From NCBI RefSeq assembly GCF_002874775.1, contig NZ_CP020991.1, positions 2,332,451-2,396,450 on the forward strand: a DNA stretch of 64,000 nt. The letters run 5' to 3'. The position numbers were made by a program, and so were the translations under genes. A model generated the notes under the pieces. That model worked only from the letters and a program-made list of their open reading frames with translations. It was not told where the DNA came from and did not search any database. Below are positions 5,919-31,740 of the stretch, piece by piece. Position 1 is the stretch's first letter. Each line of letters begins with the position of its first letter. This DNA is from Monoglobus pectinilyticus (lineage in GTDB: Bacteria; Bacillota; Clostridia; Monoglobales; Monoglobaceae).

Positions 5919-6494
5919 ATGACAAATGAACAAATAATTGATATGCTTAAAGAGGCGGAAGTTTTGCTGGAAGGACATTTTCTTTTAACATCGGGAAGGC
6001 ACAGCGATAAATATATGCAGTGCGCTAAGATTTTCCAATATGCAAAGTATAGCGAACCTCTCTGTGCCGAGCTTGCAAAACAATATAAAGAAGATAATGT
6101 TGAATTGGTTATAGGGCCGGCAATAGGCGCAATTCAAATGGCGTATGAAGTTGGAAAACAGCTTGGTGTTAAAAACATATTTGCTGAACGTGAGGATGGA
6201 AAAATGACGCTGAGACGCGGATTTACAATCGAAAAAGGTCAGCGTGTTCTAATCGTAGAGGATGTTGTTACAACTGGGGGAAGTGTTCGAGAGGTTATGG
6301 AGCTTGTCAATGAAGCCGGAGGAAAGATAGTGGGAATAGGTTCAATCGTTGACAGAACCGGCGGTAAAATTGATTTTGGAGTTCCTTATAAGAGTGCATT
6401 TTCTATGGATATAACATCTTATGAGCCTGATGACTGTCCGATTTGTAAGTCTGGAACACCATTGGTTAAACCGGGCAGCAGAAAGATAAAATAA
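5919..6494 (+). CDS. pyrE: Orotate phosphoribosyltransferase
   Basis: 191 aa with the PRPP motif VLIVEDVVTTGGSV at about residues 109-122 and the opening LLEGHFLLTSGRHSDKYMQ typical of PyrE. It joins orotate to PRPP to give OMP. A TTGGAGG site precedes the start. Its stop codon shares a base with the next start (TAATG), so the following radC-like gene is probably translated from the same mRNA. Confidence 0.95.
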   Translation: MTNEQIIDMLKEAEVLLEGHFLLTSGRHSDKYMQCAKIFQYAKYSEPLCAELAKQYKEDNVELVIGPAIGAIQMAYEVGKQLGVKNIFAEREDGKMTLRRGFTIEKGQRVLIVEDVVTTGGSVREVMELVNEAGGKIVGIGSIVDRTGGKIDFGVPYKSAFSMDITSYEPDDCPICKSGTPLVKPGSRKIK

Positions 6495-7186
6495 TGAAAT
6501 CGAATAATACACATGACGGTCACAGAATCAGAATGCGTGAAAAGCTTGAGAGCGGAAATTTAGCTGATTTGCCTGAACATGAACAGCTTGAAATTCTTTT
6601 ATTCTCTGTGATACCGAGAGGAAATACAAATGAAATCGCTCATGAGCTTCTGAGAAAATTCGGTTCAATCTATGGTGTATTGTCAGCAGATATCAGCAGT
6701 TTGCTGGAGGTTGACGGCATAGGAGCGCGCGTTGCGGATTTTCTGCATAATCTCCCGGCTGTTTTAGGAGTTGTTATGCGTTCTAAAATCTCGTATGAAA
6801 CAGATAATAAATTTTTACTGAATGATATTAACACTTTAAAAGATTATTTGTTTTCTCTATTTTCGGATACTGTTTCAGAGCGGGCGTATATATTATTTTT
6901 AAATAAGGGTTTTCGGCTTATCAAGTTTGAGAAGATAAGCGACGGCTCTTTAGAGCAGGTATACATAGATATATCAAAGGCTGTACGGCGCGCCATATTA
7001 AACAATGCCGCATATGTGGTGCTGACGCATAATCATCCCAGCGGCTCGGTTATGCCAAGCGACGCTGATATTTCATCAACCCGAGAGCTTGACGAGGCCT
7101 TGAACACTGTAGGAATAGGCCTTTTAGACCATATAATAATCGGCGGTGACAGCTATTATAGTTTCCGTGAAAGCAGACATTATTAA
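6494..7186 (+). CDS. radC: RadC-like JAB-domain protein (copy 1)
   Basis: 230 aa. The N-terminal part has a helix-hairpin-helix-like segment (LLEVDGIGARVADFL, about 75-89). The C-terminal JAMM/MPN metalloprotease-like fold has THNHPSGSVMPSDAD (about 176-190), with the metal-binding HxH, Ser and Asp intact. The function of RadC proteins is unsettled; despite the name a direct DNA-repair role is doubtful. It overlaps the pyrE stop by one base and ends the pyr operon before a strong terminator. A close paralogue lies 310 bp downstream. Confidence 0.85.
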   Translation: MKSNNTHDGHRIRMREKLESGNLADLPEHEQLEILLFSVIPRGNTNEIAHELLRKFGSIYGVLSADISSLLEVDGIGARVADFLHNLPAVLGVVMRSKISYETDNKFLLNDINTLKDYLFSLFSDTVSERAYILFLNKGFRLIKFEKISDGSLEQVYIDISKAVRRAILNNAAYVVLTHNHPSGSVMPSDADISSTRELDEALNTVGIGLLDHIIIGGDSYYSFRESRHY

Positions 7187-7190
7187 TAAA

Positions 7191-7239
7191 AGAATCCTTT
7201 AACCTGATGAATTTGGCGGGTTAGAGGATTCTTTATTTT
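7191..7239 (+). terminator. Terminator of the pyr-radC operon
   Basis: A 14-bp stem with one wobble pair (AGAATCCTTTAACC 7191-7204 with 7219-7232) is followed by TTATTTT. Confidence 0.85.
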
Positions 7240-7281
7240 AAAATATAAAACCAAATTTATTATAAAAAACGGTGAAAGTGC

Positions 7282-7310
7282 TTGTATAATATCATATAAT
7301 GTCGTATAAT
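7282..7310 (+). promoter_or_regulatory. Promoter for the second radC-like operon
   Basis: TTGTAT (7282-7287), 17-bp spacer, TATAAT (7305-7310). Two more TATAAT-like hexamers overlap the spacer, so the exact start is uncertain. Confidence 0.55.
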
Positions 7311-7377
7311 TACTATAAAGATATGTGAATTTAAAGAACATATTAAAAAGAACATATTTGTTGGGAGGAATTATAGT

Positions 7378-7500
7378 ATGCAAGATATGCAGAGAATATA
7401 TAAACTAAAAATAGATAATATATTTTCAAATAGTAATGATATTATACATGAAATGGATTGCCGATTTATAAAACAGTTGGCATATGGTAAAAAAATATGA
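7378..7500 (+). CDS. 40-aa ORF coupled to radC copy 2
   Basis: A 40-codon ORF starting MQDMQRIYKLKID, with a strong GGGAGGA (7363-7369) 8 nt before its ATG. Its stop overlaps the ATG of the following radC-like gene (ATGA at 7497-7500). The downstream gene lacks its own clear ribosome site, so translation of this ORF probably delivers ribosomes to radC copy 2. I do not recognise the peptide: it is mixed charged/polar with no membrane segment. It could be a genuine small protein or only a coupling leader. Confidence 0.55.
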   Translation: MQDMQRIYKLKIDNIFSNSNDIIHEMDCRFIKQLAYGKKI

Positions 7501-8189
7501 ATTCAAAAAGTTCACATCATGGTCATAGAGATAGAATGCGGGAGAAATTAGAGCATGGAAGTTTGGCAGATTTTCCTGAACATGAGCAGCTGGAAGTTCT
7601 CTTATTCTCTGTGATACCAAGAGGAAATACAAATGAAATAGCTCATGAACTTTTAAGAAGATTTGGTTCTATATACGGAGTTTTATCCGCCGACACCAAT
7701 AGCCTTATCCAGGTGGAAGGGGTAGGTGAACGAGTCGCAGACTTTTTACATAATTTACCTGCTGTTTTGGGCGTGGTAATGCGTTCTAAAGTTTTGTATG
7801 AAACGGATAACAGGTTTGTGCTTAAAGATACGGACAGATTAAAGGAATATTTGTTTTCATTATATGCGGACACTATAGCTGAACGCGCTTATATCTTATT
7901 TTTGAATAAAGGATTTCGATTAATAAAATATGAATTGATATGTGAGGGTTCAATAGATGAGGTTTATTTAGATATTAAAATGGCGGTTCGCAGAGCTTTA
8001 ATGAACCATGCGGCATATGTAGTGCTTACACATAATCATCCAAGCGGTCTTGTTTTTCCAAGCGATTCAGATATTATATCTACCAGAGAACTGAGCGAAG
8101 CTTTAAATACAGTTAAAATTGGGTTTTGGGATCATGTAATAGTTGGAGGTAATCAATACTACAGTTTTAGGGAGAGCAGGAATTATTAA
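7497..8189 (+). CDS. radC: RadC-like JAB-domain protein (copy 2)
   Basis: 230 aa, the same length as copy 1 and strongly similar along its whole length (shared ADFPEHEQLE/ADLPEHEQLE, PRGNTNEIAHELL, YILFLNKGFRLIK). The JAMM motif THNHPSGLVFPSDSD keeps HxH, Ser and the final Asp. A tandem duplication with substantial divergence. It overlaps the 40-aa ORF by four bases and is followed 21 bp later by a WYL regulator, so the three appear to form one transcription unit. Confidence 0.85.
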   Translation: MNSKSSHHGHRDRMREKLEHGSLADFPEHEQLEVLLFSVIPRGNTNEIAHELLRRFGSIYGVLSADTNSLIQVEGVGERVADFLHNLPAVLGVVMRSKVLYETDNRFVLKDTDRLKEYLFSLYADTIAERAYILFLNKGFRLIKYELICEGSIDEVYLDIKMAVRRALMNHAAYVVLTHNHPSGLVFPSDSDIISTRELSEALNTVKIGFWDHVIVGGNQYYSFRESRNY

Positions 8190-9530: not shown

Positions 9531-10600
9531 TGTAGGTTTGTCAATGATGTGTTACAAAAAAGATTAAAAGAATTCGCCGAAATTGATAAAAGAGTTGATG
9601 TAGTCAATGGGAGCTTTCCAATTAAGCGGACGCATCGGGAATTTATTGTAGTTTTGGTTATGCACCTTTAATTGCTTTGCAAAATCATCAAACGCGTAGA
9701 ATTTATGTGTTGCATAAAAATACTCGTTATCCTTACGGTGTGAACGCTCTACCTTGCCGTTATGTCTAGGTGTGTACGGTCTTATGAGCTTATGTTGTAT
9801 TCCAAGTTCTTTAAGTCGCTTTTCAAACATAGTTAGGGTCGGCTTTTGAGAGCTGCCAAGCCTCTTGGTAAACTCTTGTCCGTTATCGGTCTGAACGCAC
9901 TCAATAGGGAATTTAAAGGCTTTTACAAGGTGTTCGAGAATAGCTGCTGTGCTCCACAAAAGCTTCTAAATACCGGAAACGTGAATATTCGTCAATAGCT
10001 GTATACTGATAGAACTTTTTACCATTAGCTTCACCGACAATGCAAGCTTCAGGAACGAACTTAACGTCTATCTGTACTCTCTGACCGGGATAGAGCATTT
10101 GCTCGTAAGGCTTTGGTATGTATTTGGGATTGGGTGGTTTAACAGGCATTTGTCCCTGTTTGCGGAGTATGCGGTAAAGACCTGTAACAGAACGAGTATA
10201 GCCTCTTTGACGAAGCTTAACCCAAAACACAACAAGTCCGGCATTGGGGCTACGGCGGCGCATATCAGTAATCAATTTTAACTCATCAGCGGTATGCTGA
10301 TTGGGATGATGGTGGGGTTTATGTGATTTATCGGCTAAGGAGGCGAGCGTACCGTCGTAGCGTTTTCGCCAGCGATAGACATACTGACGATTTACCTTAT
10401 AGCGAATGGCAGCCTTTGTCACGCCGTGTTTAAAAGAATATTCAATTAATACTTGCCTAAATCTCATAGTTTGTGTTATAGTGTTCATATACGGAAGGCT
10501 CCTTTGTGTATGTGATATTGTGGTGATATAACTATAACACAATTTATGAGTTTTCCGTATTCTTTTTTTCTCTTTGTAACACATCTATTGTAATCCTACA
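9531..10600 (-). mobile_element. IS481-type insertion sequence, ~1.07 kb
   Basis: Imperfect terminal inverted repeats start TGTAGG at both ends (9531 and, inverted, 10600) and share TGTGTTACAAA further in (9548-9558 and inverted 10573-10583). They enclose a broken DDE transposase. Size and TGT ends fit the IS481 family. No target-site duplication is apparent in the flanks, so the exact ends are provisional. Confidence 0.75.
9564..10488 (-). pseudogene. Frameshifted IS481-family transposase
   Basis: The start is ATG at 10488, with AAAGGAG upstream on the minus strand. The first frame has an N-terminal HTH (VTKAAIRYKVNRQYVYRWRK) and the first catalytic Asp in QIDVKFVP, then leaves frame after YLEAFVEHS near 9945-9965. 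The other frame resumes with STAAILEHLVKAFKFP and contains the second Asp (VQTDNGQEF) and the Glu (HNGKVERSH). The family is normally one ORF, and a few residues seem to be missing at the junction. A small deletion rather than programmed frameshifting is the likely cause, and the element is probably inactive on its own. Confidence 0.85.
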
Positions 10601-28790: not shown

Positions 28791-29073
28791 CTTTTGCTAC
28801 ACCCCTCATATGACCCAATATTACAATATTTTCAAAATTAATTTAACTACCGTCAATACAATAATATATAAGAAATATTTCTACATATCAGAATGTATAT
28901 TATGAATAATTTACTAGATAAATTTTACACAGTAGTTATGTAAATTTTGTTTACTAATGTTGTTATATAATGTCAATCTCATAATATTATTTGAAAATAT
29001 TAAGCAACATTAATATATAATAAAATTAAGTAATATGTTGACCACAATATTGGTCAAAATAAAAAAGTTATAT

Positions 29074-29261
29074 AGCAAGCATCGGTAGGGCAGACGTAGT
29101 CTGCCACGTAAGGCGCGCAGTCGTGGAAATAAATAATATAATAAATATCATTTCAGCAAAATACATTTAATTAATCTTATAATTACTTACTTTGTTGCGC
29201 CAGACCCAGTTTCGCCCGCCGAGCCCGGGCGAGATCGTCGTCCCCTACGGGGAAGCCGATT
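29074..29261 (+). repeat. Dispersed structured repeat, copy B
   Basis: Same organisation as copy A, in the opposite orientation. Its first hairpin is GGCAGAC-GTA-GTCTGCC (29089-29105), which differs from copy A in both arms yet pairs perfectly. It ends with a TCCCC/GGGGA hairpin and CCGATT. Confidence 0.85.
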
Positions 29262-29429
29262 GTTGAGCTACAACATTATAAATGTGACATTGGCAGGACA
29301 ACATATGAAAAATATGAAAGCGGAGAGTTAAATATTCGCATTAGTGTGTTAGTAGCATTGCGAGAGATATATGATTGCAAATATGATGATTTTTTTGAAG
29401 GATTAGTAGCAGAAAGAATAGATAGTTAG
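29259..29429 (+). pseudogene. C-terminal fragment of an XRE/Cro-type HTH regulator
   Basis: An open frame without a start codon reads IVELQHYKCDIGRTTYEKYE, then SGELNIRISVLVALREIYD and KYDDFFEGL to a stop at 29427. This is the second half of a small Cro/CI-like HTH protein. The N-terminal half is absent, replaced by the end of repeat B, so the repeat has probably inserted into or deleted part of the gene. Confidence 0.65.
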
Positions 29430-29466
29430 TTTTTTATATATTTCATAACAAAAAAACGGATTATAT

Positions 29467-29656
29467 AGCAAGCATCGGTAGGGCAGACGTAGTCTGCCAC
29501 GTAAGGCGCGCAGTCGCGGAAATATGTAATATAATAAATATCATTTCAGCAAAAAATTATTTAATTATTTTTATAATTACTTACTTTGTTGCGCCAGGCC
29601 CAGTTTCGCCCGCCGAGCCTGGGCGAGATCGTCGTCCCCTCCGGGGAAGCCGATTA
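29467..29656 (+). repeat. Dispersed structured repeat, copy C
   Basis: Nearly identical to copy B in the same orientation, including the GGCAGAC-GTA-GTCTGCC hairpin (29482-29498). It lies 206 bp after copy B, with the HTH fragment in between, and directly before the toxin-like array. Confidence 0.85.
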
Positions 29657-29721
29657 AAATAAAAACATAATAGATTAAAAAATGACCTTGACATTTAGAA
29701 AAAAAATGATATAATAAAAGC

Positions 29722-29806
29722 AGATAAAAGGTAACCGTTAAACGGTCAGCCAAAAATTGTGATTTTAAAGTAACCGCAATCCTTGGGGGAGGGCGGTTAC
29801 TTTTTT
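29722..29806 (+). ncRNA. Candidate antisense RNA, unit 1
   Basis: The promoter is TTGACA (29688-29693), 16-bp spacer, TATAAT (29710-29715). The RNA of ~85 nt has a 5' hairpin around AACCGTTAAACGGTT and ends at a terminator (AAGTAACCGC 29768-29777 with 29793-29802, then T6). No ORF. It overlaps the stop codon and 3' untranslated part of the peptide mRNA, as RatA does for txpA. Confidence 0.7.
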
Positions 29807-29865
29807 ATTGATTCAATGAGAGTAATGAAAACAATCATAAAAATAATTATGTAAACATACTCCAT
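29797..29865 (-). CDS. 22-aa hydrophobic peptide, unit 1 (candidate type I toxin)
   Basis: Starts MEYVY and ends ESIKK; residues ~4-17 are Ile/Phe/Val-rich and could span a membrane, with a basic C-terminus. GGGGGTGA lies 8 nt before the ATG but is in a hairpin (29873-29909). The promoter on the minus strand is TTGACT (29976-29971), 17-bp spacer, TATAAT (29953-29948). Units 3 and 4 encode the identical peptide. Size and layout resemble Ibs or Fst-type toxins; toxicity is inferred. Confidence 0.75.
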   Translation of the reverse strand: MEYVYIIIFMIVFITLIESIKK

Positions 29866-30054
29866 ATAAATCACCCCCTTTCTATCACTAAGTAAGTGAT
29901 AGAGGGAGGCTAACCGTCCTACAATTTCCTTTTACCTGCTGGATATAATTATATATGTAATATTGAATAAAGTCAAATTAAAAGTATTTTACATAAAAGC
30001 ATTAATAGACTAAAAAATGACCTTGACAATTAGAAAAAAAATGATATAATAAAA

Positions 30055-30134
30055 GCAATTTAAAGGAAGCTCTCTTCGACAGGCTCAGAGGCAGCTCTGA
30101 ACCCGCAAGCAAGCTTGCTGATTAAAGATAAAAG
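30055..30134 (+). repeat. 80-bp inverted-repeat arm (left) in unit 2
   Basis: 78 of 80 bases match the reverse complement of 30331-30410. It lies between the plus-strand promoter and the common 5' hairpin, so it extends the 5' end of the unit 2 short RNA. Confidence 0.9.
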
Positions 30135-30209
30135 GTAACCGTTAAACGGTTAGCCGAGTTTAGTTATTTTAATAACCGTGACCCAGGCAAAGGCGCGGTT
30201 ATTTTTTTT
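30056..30209 (+). ncRNA. Candidate antisense RNA, unit 2 (extended)
   Basis: Promoter TTGACA (30023-30028), 16-bp spacer, TATAAT (30045-30050). About 154 nt because of the 80-bp arm. The terminator pairs AATAACCG (30171-30178) with CGGTTATT (30196-30203), followed by T's. Confidence 0.65.
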
Positions 30210-30268
30210 ATTGATTCAATCATACATGTAAAAACAATCATAAAAATGATTATGTACATATAATCCAT
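30164..30268 (-). CDS. 34-aa hydrophobic peptide, unit 2
   Basis: Starts MDYMY and is homologous to the other units up to ESIKK. A one-base change in the A run removes the usual stop, and 12 more residues (ITAPLPGSRLLK) are read from the terminator region. The ribosome site GAGGTGA is again in a hairpin, with different base pairs from unit 1. Promoter on the minus strand: TTGACT (30449-30444), 17 bp, TATAAT (30426-30421). Confidence 0.65.
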   Translation of the reverse strand: MDYMYIIIFMIVFTCMIESIKKITAPLPGSRLLK

Positions 30269-30330
30269 GTGAATCACCTCTTTTCTGTCATTAAGTAAAT
30301 GACAATAGAGGTTAACCGTCCTTCAATTTT

Positions 30331-30410
30331 CTTTTATCTTCAATCAGCAAGCTTGCTTGCGGGTTCAAAGCTGCCTCTGAGCCTGTCGAAGAGAGCTTCC
30401 TTTAAATTGC
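30331..30410 (-). repeat. 80-bp inverted-repeat arm (right) in unit 2
   Basis: Partner of 30055-30134. It lies just after the minus-strand promoter and so lengthens the 5' leader of the peptide mRNA by the same sequence. A degraded version of its left part is seen at 31401-31460 in unit 5. Confidence 0.9.
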
Positions 30411-30527
30411 TAAATATAATATTATATTTGATTTATCGAATAAAGTCAAATTATAAGTTTTTTACATAAAACATATAATATATAAAAATGACCTTGACAA
30501 TTTATAAAAAAATGATATAATAAAAAC

Positions 30528-30612
30528 AGATAAAAGGTAACCGTTAAACGGTTAGCCAAGAGTAAAGTTAAAAAGTAACTGCTATCCTAGCTAAGAGGGC
30601 GGTTACTTTTTT
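30528..30612 (+). ncRNA. Candidate antisense RNA, unit 3
   Basis: Promoter TTGACA (30494-30499), 16 bp, TATAAT (30516-30521). The terminator pairs AAGTAACTGC with GCGGTTACTT (one wobble), followed by T6. Confidence 0.7.
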
Positions 30613-30671
30613 ATTGATTCAATGAGAGTAATGAAAACAATCATAAAAATAATTATGTAAACATACTCCAT
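30603..30671 (-). CDS. 22-aa hydrophobic peptide, unit 3
   Basis: The encoded peptide is identical to units 1 and 4. Promoter on the minus strand: TTGACT (30783-30778), 17 bp, TATAAT (30760-30755). The leader hairpin uses CCTCCC against GGGGG as in unit 1. Confidence 0.75.
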   Translation of the reverse strand: MEYVYIIIFMIVFITLIESIKK

Positions 30672-30863
30672 ACAAATCACCCCCTTTCTATCACTAAATA
30701 AGTGATATAGGGAGGCTAACCGTCCTACAATTTCCTTTTACCTGCTTCTATAATATTATATTTGATTTATCGAATAAAGTCAAATTAAAAGTATTTTATA
30801 TAAAAGCATATAAAAGACGAAAAATGACCTTGACATTTATGAAAAAAATGATATAATAAAAAC

Positions 30864-30947
30864 AGATAAAAGGTAACCGTTAAACGGTTAGCCCAAAGTT
30901 TTGGTTTTAGTAACCGCGTTCCTTGGAGTAAGGGCGGTTACTTTTTT
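30864..30947 (+). ncRNA. Candidate antisense RNA, unit 4
   Basis: Promoter TTGACA (30830-30835), 16 bp, TATAAT (30852-30857). Terminator AGTAACCGC with GCGGTTACT and T6. Confidence 0.7.
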
Positions 30948-31006
30948 ATTGATTCAATGAGAGTTATGAAAACAATCATAAAAATAATTATGTAAACATA
31001 CTCCAT
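30938..31006 (-). CDS. 22-aa hydrophobic peptide, unit 4
   Basis: Same peptide as units 1 and 3 with silent differences (for example ATA for ATT), so selection on the protein sequence is plausible. Promoter on the minus strand: TTGACT (31118-31113), 17 bp, TATAAT (31095-31090). Confidence 0.75.
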   Translation of the reverse strand: MEYVYIIIFMIVFITLIESIKK

Positions 31007-31197
31007 ACAAATCACCCCCTTTCTATCACTAAATAAGTGATATAGGGAGGCTAACCGTCCTACAATTTCCTTTTACCTGCTTCTATAATATTATATTTGA
31101 TTTATCGAATAAAGTCAAATTAAAAGTATTTTACATAAAGACATATAATAGATAAAAATGACCTTGACAACTTTAAAAAAAATGATATAATAAAAGT

Positions 31198-31283
31198 AGG
31201 TAAGAGGTAACCGCTAAACGGTTAGCCGAGAATTGGGGTTTTAAAGTAACCGCGTTCCTTGGGGTAAGGGCGGTTACTTTTTT
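31198..31283 (+). ncRNA. Candidate antisense RNA, unit 5
   Basis: Promoter TTGACA (31164-31169), 16 bp, TATAAT (31186-31191). Terminator AAGTAACCGC with GCGGTTACTT and T6. Confidence 0.7.
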
Positions 31284-31342
31284 ATTGACTCAATTAGAGT
31301 GATGAAAACAATCATAAAAATAATTATGTTCATATAATCCAT
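31274..31342 (-). CDS. 22-aa hydrophobic peptide, unit 5
   Basis: Starts MDYMN and ends ESIKK. The ribosome site AAAGGAG is paired with CCTTT in the leader, a third version of the sequestering stem. No minus-strand TTGACT/TATAAT is left upstream (31440-31500), so this copy may be silent or decaying. Confidence 0.6.
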   Translation of the reverse strand: MDYMNIIIFMIVFITLIESIKK

Positions 31343-31343
31343 G

Positions 31344-31740
31344 TGAATCATCTCCTTTCTGTCATTAAATAAATGACAACAAAGGCTAACCATTTTTAAT
31401 TTTCTTTTATCTTTATTCAGCAAGCTTGCTTGCAGTTTAAAGCTGTCTTTGAATAATATTAAATGAAATTTTAAAAATATATTTAACTATTTAAACTTCT
31501 CACCTCGCTGCTGTGCAGAATTCGGTTCCTATGTTTTGCCCGAACTTTGGGCGGCTTTCCATTTCGGAAAGCCGCTTTTTTATATGAAAATTAATGTTTT
31601 TTAAATTAATCAATTCTTTTACACTTTCGTCATAATTTTTTCATATCTTCCGTATATAATGTTAAACATAGCAAGGAGATAGAAAACTTGTTTATTTTCA
31701 AACAGTTAAATTTTTTATATATTATATAGGAGGTATCAGT
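31344..31740 (+). other. Intergenic region between the array and htrA
   Basis: Holds the degraded right flank of unit 5 and a GC-rich hairpin region (31500-31581). The htrA gene starts at its end with AGGAGG. Confidence 0.5.
31500..31581 (+). terminator. Strong terminator, perhaps of a short structured RNA
   Basis: GCGGCTTTCC (31551-31560) pairs with GGAAAGCCGC (31566-31575), then T6. The 50 nt before it (CCTCGCTGCTGTGCAG, TTCGG and CCGAA) are unusually GC-rich for this region and can form a second hairpin. No plus-strand gene ends here, so the terminator may belong to a small RNA I cannot name. Confidence 0.6.

Follow-up and report, generated by a model that had tools for sequence, protein, structure and literature searches.

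A tandem array of putative type I toxin-antitoxin units with a predicted closed toxin mRNA in Monoglobus pectinilyticus

What kind of element is encoded by the five tandem units at positions 29688-31342 of a 64,000-nucleotide (nt) stretch of the Monoglobus pectinilyticus genome (contig NZ_CP020991.1; hereafter, the window), each of which appears to consist of two convergent transcription units? We consider it very probable that the array is a type I toxin-antitoxin (TA) system of the BsrG/SR4 and TxpA/RatA kind, acting through a closed mRNA, with a presumed toxic peptide and predicted transcript ends. This reading follows from a conserved antitoxin RNA family paired with a hydrophobic peptide that is itself conserved and shows purifying selection, from the predicted sequestration of the toxin Shine-Dalgarno sequence within a fixed convergent layout, and from the position of the RNA family next to Hol_Tox (TxpA/BsrG-type) toxins in other genomes, together with the BsrG matches that relatives show on their toxin strand. 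The original prediction, made from the window alone, that this is a type I toxin array is thereby supported by sequence comparison.

A tandem array of convergent units

The five units are real: repeat searches recovered both a 132-nt core and a promoter block five times. The period of ~335 bp first proposed holds at the spacings of 334 to 336 and breaks around unit 2 (cores spaced 403, 403, 335 and 336 nt; promoter blocks 335, 471, 336 and 334 nt), a unit with one and the same ~70-nt insertion in the 5' regions of both of its RNAs, at its two ends, within 102-nt inverted arms that are 89% complementary (30054-30155 and 30310-30411). As originally described, every unit has a consensus plus-strand promoter (TTGACA-16-TATAAT, 12/12 match) and four have a consensus minus-strand promoter (TTGACT-17-TATAAT, 11/12 match); in unit 5 the promoter scan found no comparable minus-strand promoter, the best site matching at 9/12. 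The array region contains 26 promoter-like sites, versus 12.2 +/- 3.5 after shuffling. The convergent genes for hydrophobic peptides of 22 amino acids (34 in unit 2) were likewise confirmed, as was the overlap of each plus-strand RNA with the 3' end of the peptide mRNA: the coding sequence ends within the antitoxin coordinates, and in unit 3 the stop codon lies in the terminator stem. The features are as follows (covariance model R1 and alignment A1 are described below).

29688..29715, plus strand: unit 1 antitoxin promoter, TTGACA-16-TATAAT, 12/12 match
29722..29806, plus strand: unit 1 putative antitoxin RNA, from R1 match and alignment A1; ends predicted from the -10 box and terminator T-run
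29797..29865, minus strand: unit 1 putative toxin coding sequence, 22 amino acids, MEYVYIIIFMIVFITLIESIKK
29948..29976, minus strand: unit 1 toxin promoter, TTGACT-17-TATAAT, 11/12 match
30023..30050, plus strand: unit 2 antitoxin promoter, 12/12 match
30057..30209, plus strand: unit 2 putative antitoxin RNA with ~70-nt 5' insertion, from R1 match and inverted arms; predicted ends
30164..30268, minus strand: unit 2 putative toxin coding sequence, 34 amino acids, usual stop codon out of frame
30421..30449, minus strand: unit 2 toxin promoter, 11/12 match
30494..30521, plus strand: unit 3 antitoxin promoter, 12/12 match
30528..30612, plus strand: unit 3 putative antitoxin RNA with 5' and 3' terminator hairpins, from fold and R1 match; predicted ends
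30603..30671, minus strand: unit 3 putative toxin coding sequence, 22 amino acids, stop codon within the antitoxin terminator stem
30680..30716 (approximate limits), minus strand: unit 3 hairpin in which the toxin Shine-Dalgarno sequence is paired, from predicted folds
30717..30748, minus strand: unit 3 5' leader of the toxin mRNA, similar to the 5' end of the antitoxin and predicted by folding to pair with the 3' end of the mRNA
30755..30783, minus strand: unit 3 toxin promoter, 11/12 match
30830..30857, plus strand: unit 4 antitoxin promoter, 12/12 match
30864..30947, plus strand: unit 4 putative antitoxin RNA, from R1 match; predicted ends
30938..31006, minus strand: unit 4 putative toxin coding sequence, 22 amino acids, differing from units 1 and 3 at a single silent base
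31090..31118, minus strand: unit 4 toxin promoter, 11/12 match
31164..31191, plus strand: unit 5 antitoxin promoter, 12/12 match
31198..31283, plus strand: unit 5 putative antitoxin RNA, from R1 match; predicted ends
31274..31342, minus strand: unit 5 putative toxin coding sequence, 22 amino acids, MDYMNIIIFMIVFITLIESIKK, lacking a consensus minus-strand promoter

Judged by sequence, units 1, 3 and 4 look intact, and units 2 and 5 seem to have been changed or to be in decay. A decayed form of the ~70-nt insertion of unit 2 also occurs at the unit 5 toxin leader (31395-31441), not at the unit 5 antitoxin, and similar inserts occur at loci L006 and L007.

A conserved antitoxin RNA family

The antitoxin RNA would be ~85 nt long, or 153 nt in unit 2. 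That it ends in a terminator, as originally proposed, is borne out by the fold of unit 3, where the region 30522-30612 (z = -3.68) forms one hairpin at its 5' end and, at its 3' end, a clear terminator hairpin; a simple terminator scan listed no plus-strand terminator at the antitoxin RNA ends. The unit finder returned 53 rows, of which 51 were kept, and 31 of these 51 units have a terminator-like site at the 3' end of the antitoxin. The layout is tight, with 77-92 nt between the toxin stop codon and the antitoxin -10 box in 43/51 units and a toxin of 19-27 amino acids in most units of the family. At the sequence level, the units contain two of the features that define a type I TA system: a gene for a small hydrophobic peptide with its ribosome-binding site, and an antisense RNA gene with its own promoter and terminator that overlaps the toxin mRNA.

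Covariance model R1, built from 41 antitoxins, matched 79 of the 391 genomes sampled from the class (47 of 222 genera) and 22 of 398 genomes of the phylum, among them the M. pectinilyticus genome and three others of the class; within the M. pectinilyticus genome it found 11 places at E values up to 0.1, one of them weak. Alignment A1 left out two loci for their identical antitoxins (L047 and L066) as well as seven units that were TxpA-like or had a long antitoxin (L033, L055, L057, L060, L061, L065 and unit 2 of the window). At 42 of 50 R1 loci there is a convergent small hydrophobic open reading frame (ORF) with a Shine-Dalgarno sequence, 40 of them starting with ATG, compared to 127 of 4000 random positions (105 from ATG), which were drawn within the fetched loci with real units included; nine of the 50 loci are places already known. 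(An earlier count covered 42 of the 50 loci, 35 with the ORF, the eight omitted being known places that include L150.) Three of the eight misses, L148, L167 and L168, hold a hydrophobic ORF that fails the Shine-Dalgarno rule, and the other five, L150, L151, L161, L162 and L163, have no convergent hydrophobic ORF. A pattern describing only the antitoxin matched named genome and viral contigs at 50 places, with the ORF present in 29 (ATG) or 31 (any start) and several misses sitting near the end of the fetched stretch. On this comparative evidence, the RNA half is a real conserved family.

Two identical antitoxin-pattern matches in a Latescibacteria genome (L094 and L117), which have no convergent hydrophobic ORF, were set aside as chance; they are probably a repeat of that genome's own. 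A plain DNA search matched 40 of 100 genomes, the source genome included, with many matches being short promoter or leader fragments.

Peptides under purifying selection

Units 1, 3 and 4 share the same 22-residue peptide, and the peptide of unit 5, also 22 residues long, begins MDYMNIII. The original argument for selection was that identical peptides differ by silent bases; only one such substitution exists, since the coding DNA of units 1 and 3 is identical and that of unit 4 is one silent base apart. Selection is instead shown by relatives, whose pooled ratios of nonsynonymous to synonymous substitution rates (dN/dS) were 0.16 (69-nt coding sequences, 154 pairs), 0.35 (75 nt, 70 pairs) and 0.38 (72 nt, 14 pairs), for nonindependent pairs with at least 55% amino acid identity and different DNA. 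Purifying selection on the putative toxin is therefore supported by these sequences. Locus L037, separated from its antitoxin by 278 nt, and an additional start in L051 were dropped before the pairing and dN/dS analyses, and L042 was dropped from the alignment and from folds counted over 50 units.

In IKK-type toxins, the lysine codons before the stop, AAA AAG (or AAA AAA), are the reverse complement of the terminator T-run. The C-terminal residues are thus written by the antitoxin terminator, so that one stretch of DNA serves two genes. The peptides of the window matched no Pfam or NCBIfam family searched, in agreement with the initial view that they belong to no recognized family.

Predicted pairing between the two ends of the toxin mRNA

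The toxin leader carries, at most loci, a large part of the antitoxin 5' sequence and varies with it locus by locus; in the window the shared sequence is GCAGATAAAAGG..CGGTTAGCC. Because the leader resembles the antitoxin 5' end and the antitoxin is in turn the antisense of the 3' end of the mRNA, the two ends of the toxin mRNA are complementary to each other. Among 75 nonredundant units (reduced from 117), the duplex between a leader and its own 3' end had an energy of -40.0 kcal/mol, compared to -30.1 +/- 0.56 kcal/mol when partners were permuted, with 0 of 20,000 permutations as good. The same specificity was found in each of three subsets (0/20,000 each) and when shuffling was confined within genomes (0/20,000; 27 units in seven genomes). 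For the within-genome shuffles and a test of stop-proximal pairing, 51 units were cut to 40. The leader can also pair with the sequence directly following the stop codon, a pairing that was rejected as a locus-specific feature and is generic (-11.99 for own versus -12.23 for permuted partners, 15,273/20,000 as good, 40 units).

Predicted folds agree with such closure. The full-length mRNA of unit 3 folds as a closed panhandle with a z score of -9.45, versus -2.19 without its 3' end; at least 10 leader-tail pairs are expected in 42 of 50 modeled units, and the Shine-Dalgarno sequence is predicted to be paired (probability >0.7) in 47/50. Within the array, the leader pairing energy is poor in unit 5 (-22.1) compared to units 1, 3 and 4 (-47.6 to -48.7). 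In the CGGTTAGCC element, columns +5, +6 and +8 show changes on both sides in 17, 14 and 16 units, with only 47 of 75 units anchored and many changes tracking two lineages. Differences between leader and antitoxin favor changes that allow G-U pairing, at 114:28 (4.07) within loci and 968:429 (2.26) across loci, so the asymmetry is partly a fixed pattern. Two further leaders, at L044 and L045, have two Shine-Dalgarno hairpins in succession, and at L044 a short ATG frame seemingly overlaps the toxin start and may be a mok-like leader frame.

An arrangement of this kind could also be read as a par/Fst-like module, in which the 5' arm of the antitoxin pairs with the leader (compare DRa/DRb) and blocks translation directly, and the two RNAs share a bidirectional terminator. 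As in par/Fst of pAD1, the toxin is short and hydrophobic, and the portions of PMC7472228 that deal with par give convergent promoters, a stem covering the Shine-Dalgarno sequence and a shared terminator as its features. The antitoxin 5' hairpin is near-palindromic, and its 5' arm is therefore roughly complementary to the toxin leader; yet par/Fst complementarity lies at direct repeats, whereas the 5' ends here are inverted repeats, and no clear locus-specific complementarity between leader and antitoxin was detected. Leaders paired with their own antitoxin at -23.36 versus -22.92 permuted in 51 units (3,082/20,000 as good) and at -24.19 versus -23.47 in 75 units (458/20,000). On the toxin strand, only 5/51 units have a terminator-like site at the shared terminator, versus 24/51 at the antitoxin 5' hairpin, and the peptides of the window lack the PXXXG motif that a figure legend of PMC7472228 gives for Fst. 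We therefore regard a par/Fst-like module as unlikely.

Relationship to BsrG, TxpA and other families

The closed-mRNA TA reading is strengthened by the toxins found on the same RNA in other genomes. Ten diverse toxins were compared with the Pfam model Hol_Tox (PF16935), and two scored above its cut-off of 23.3 bits (25.9 and 32.4 bits), with a third at 16.1. Conversely, R1 matched 10 of 30 Hol_Tox loci at E < 0.05, and its matches lie adjacent and convergent to independently found Hol_Tox genes at G481, G519 and G540, the gene at G519 scoring below the Hol_Tox cut-off. The Hol_Tox loci have their own 5'-3' complementarity (-49.2 versus -36.4 +/- 1.3 permuted, 0/20,000), measured over 23 loci after L212, L219, L223 and L225 were dropped for doubtful ORF calls and 26 loci were reduced to 23 by similarity. 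By these loci, the txpA/RatA kind resembles the array in both layout and locus-specific closure; unlike them, the window has peptides without a Hol_Tox match.

Could the peptide instead be a nontoxic, regulated small membrane peptide, such as a signal or a modulator of a membrane protein, under antisense control? Short single-helix peptides may have nontoxic roles, and tandem identical copies might raise dosage. The presence of Hol_Tox-family peptides above the cut-off at two loci with the same RNA chassis, and a predicted multilayer repression that suits toxins, make this quite unlikely.

The BsrG family of Rfam (RF01412) was found on the toxin strand, in the right place, at 6/20 and 2/18 scanned relative loci at E values up to 1, and accounts for 8 of the 10 non-tRNA Rfam matches across both scans. 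The best match, at L053 (43.2 bits, E = 3.7e-7), is the sole one strong by itself. The RF01412 consensus has outer 5'-3' helices, and the model itself finds many of the Hol_Tox loci. The array resembles bsrG/SR4 and bsrE/SR5 of Bacillus subtilis in its convergent, 3'-overlapping RNAs and in a Shine-Dalgarno sequence sequestered by a few GC pairs, and is predicted to share the 5'-3' closing helix and sequestering stem of the BsrG type. It differs from bsrG/SR4 in its tandem arrangement, a shorter antitoxin, a toxin that is not a BsrG peptide, and RF01412 scores below the gathering cut-off. In the sections of PMC6562991 on bsrG, the antitoxin contacts the 3' part of helix P1 in the mRNA, the Shine-Dalgarno sequence is held in four or five GC pairs, decay is by RNase III, and toxin genes may have been exchanged between the bsrG and bsrE/H loci. 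The part of PMC6733600 on aapA3 describes a full-length toxin mRNA held inert by long-distance 5'-3' pairing and activated by 3' truncation. Predicted closure is thus a likeness to hok/Sok and aapA/IsoA, systems that differ in being Gram-negative and in having other toxins.

The window list at E values up to 10 contained 18 Rfam entries, and the loci reached the cut-off of no family in the Rfam scans made. Of the parallels named at the outset, BsrG/SR4 and TxpA/RatA fit best, and Ldr and Ibs/Sib had no match at cut-off in these Rfam scans. RatA (RF01776) had no match in the window scans, and a control search with RatA was also without a match anywhere. Weak matches to the OhsC antitoxin model of shoB/OhsC (RF02495), in the correct orientation, came from the antitoxins of unit 3 (28.4 bits, E = 0.11) and unit 5 (24.4 bits, E = 0.73), far under the 50-bit gathering score, with no OhsC match at E values up to 1 in 38 other scanned loci. 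The CD2517.1/RCd8 group of Clostridioides difficile likewise comprises convergent type I modules in Clostridia, several of them in prophages according to PMC6563280, with toxins of 34-59 amino acids that form their own sequence family; that description sets the window toxins apart.

Several observations weigh against assignment to the BsrG/TxpA kind. The window peptides have no detectable similarity to Hol_Tox and do not match its model. No unit reached the RF01412 gathering score of 55 bits, the best match in the window being 18.8 bits (E = 0.095, unit 2), and no RF01412 match at E values up to 1 was found at L006, L007 or L011 of the same genome or at L184 of a second strain. The permutations leave some relatedness between units. 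Fewer than 10 leader-tail pairs are predicted in 8/50 units, unit 2 of the window among them. Termination at the far hairpin, the antitoxin 5' hairpin, would keep the closing 3' end on the toxin mRNA; a toxin-strand terminator-like site is found there in only the 24/51 units given above, and at neither hairpin in 23/51. The sequence shared by both RNA 5' ends could in part be the product of inverted-repeat recombination, as hinted by the 102-nt arms of unit 2.

On balance, the family probably works like BsrG/SR4 and is probably related to it, and the loci look like a divergent, unannotated branch of BsrG/TxpA-type systems. Since their scores fall short of the cut-offs, we do not file them under RF01412 or PF16935.

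Proposed mechanism

Descriptions of helix P1, Shine-Dalgarno sequestration and RNase III in bsrG, together with closure in aapA3, lead us to propose a known mechanism in a new branch. The minus strand would give an mRNA of ~220 nt for a 22-residue hydrophobic peptide, probably a single-helix membrane peptide. As made, this mRNA would be closed by pairing between the ~32 nt at its start and the ~32 nt at its end, and the Shine-Dalgarno sequence would be covered by a hairpin beside the closing helix. The plus-strand antitoxin would be the antisense partner of the 3' part of this mRNA, starting shortly ahead of the stop codon, and most likely opens the closing helix by pairing there. RNase III may then cut the duplex, so that no peptide would appear while antitoxin is made. 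We speculate that when antitoxin supply drops, processing or refolding frees the ribosome site, and that the released peptide acts on the membrane of its own cell.

We consider it an even chance that the RNA half is the conserved, traveling part, a single antitoxin/mRNA chassis used with several unrelated mini-toxin families across Bacillota (IKK-end, KAI-end, MTERE and MLDVF types and Hol_Tox), with the leader as a cis copy of the antitoxin 5' domain and the Monoglobus array as a local expansion. With an antitoxin model match in about a fifth of sampled class genomes (79/391), the loci would widen the range of BsrG/TxpA-type systems to include many Clostridia and supply an extensive natural collection in which to study toxin-mRNA 5'-3' closure alongside antitoxin pairing.

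Distribution and mobility

The array flank is 97.8% identical over 2255 bases to another M. pectinilyticus assembly. The orthologous array of strain TSDC17.2-1.2 has four strong R1 matches and four peptide frames, compared to five units in the window; three of its peptides are MEYVYIIIFMIVFITLIESIKK and one resembles that of unit 5. The unit finder alone caught three of these units. Units are also present in four IMG/VR viral contigs, and the neighboring frames at L120 and L183 look phage-like; a search of the array against a phage DNA collection gave no match. The three plasmid matches are pieces of another M. pectinilyticus assembly labeled as a plasmid. Units of the type AAGGCAAGAC..CGGTTATGCC occur in genomes of several families, a sequence distribution that suggests horizontal movement.

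Copy number variation between strains (four units versus five), copies in the four viral contigs, tandem and dispersed copies (the 11 R1 matches at E values up to 0.1) and inverted 5' ends would all be at home in a small mobile repeat resembling a miniature inverted-repeat transposable element, with the inward promoters and leaders as terminal inverted repeats and the peptide as incidental. Such a repeat accounts poorly for purifying selection on the peptide, for a Shine-Dalgarno hairpin and layout that stay mostly constant across loci while the DNA diverges, for leader-antitoxin differences that favor G-U-compatible changes (114:28 within and 968:429 across loci), or for clearly different toxin proteins sharing the same RNA, and we judge it very unlikely.

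In literature searches, titles and the opening parts of abstracts contained no description of the family in Monoglobus or its relatives, which does not establish its absence from print, and no annotated feature is present at loci H1-H3 in a gene table that is itself incomplete.

Neighboring features

Upstream of the array, at 29000-29660, lies a separate repeat with ~394-bp spacing and a 62-nt core at 29200 and 29594, accompanied by a fragment of an apparent helix-turn-helix regulator; strain TSDC17.2-1.2 has ~2.5 tandem copies of it (393 bp). The unit at L185 likewise has a helix-turn-helix gene close by. Farther away in the window, positions 6494-8189 hold two tandem 230-amino-acid ORFs that are close copies of one another and that we take to be RadC-like, and positions 9564-10584 hold two overlapping minus-strand ORFs, presumably a broken transposase.

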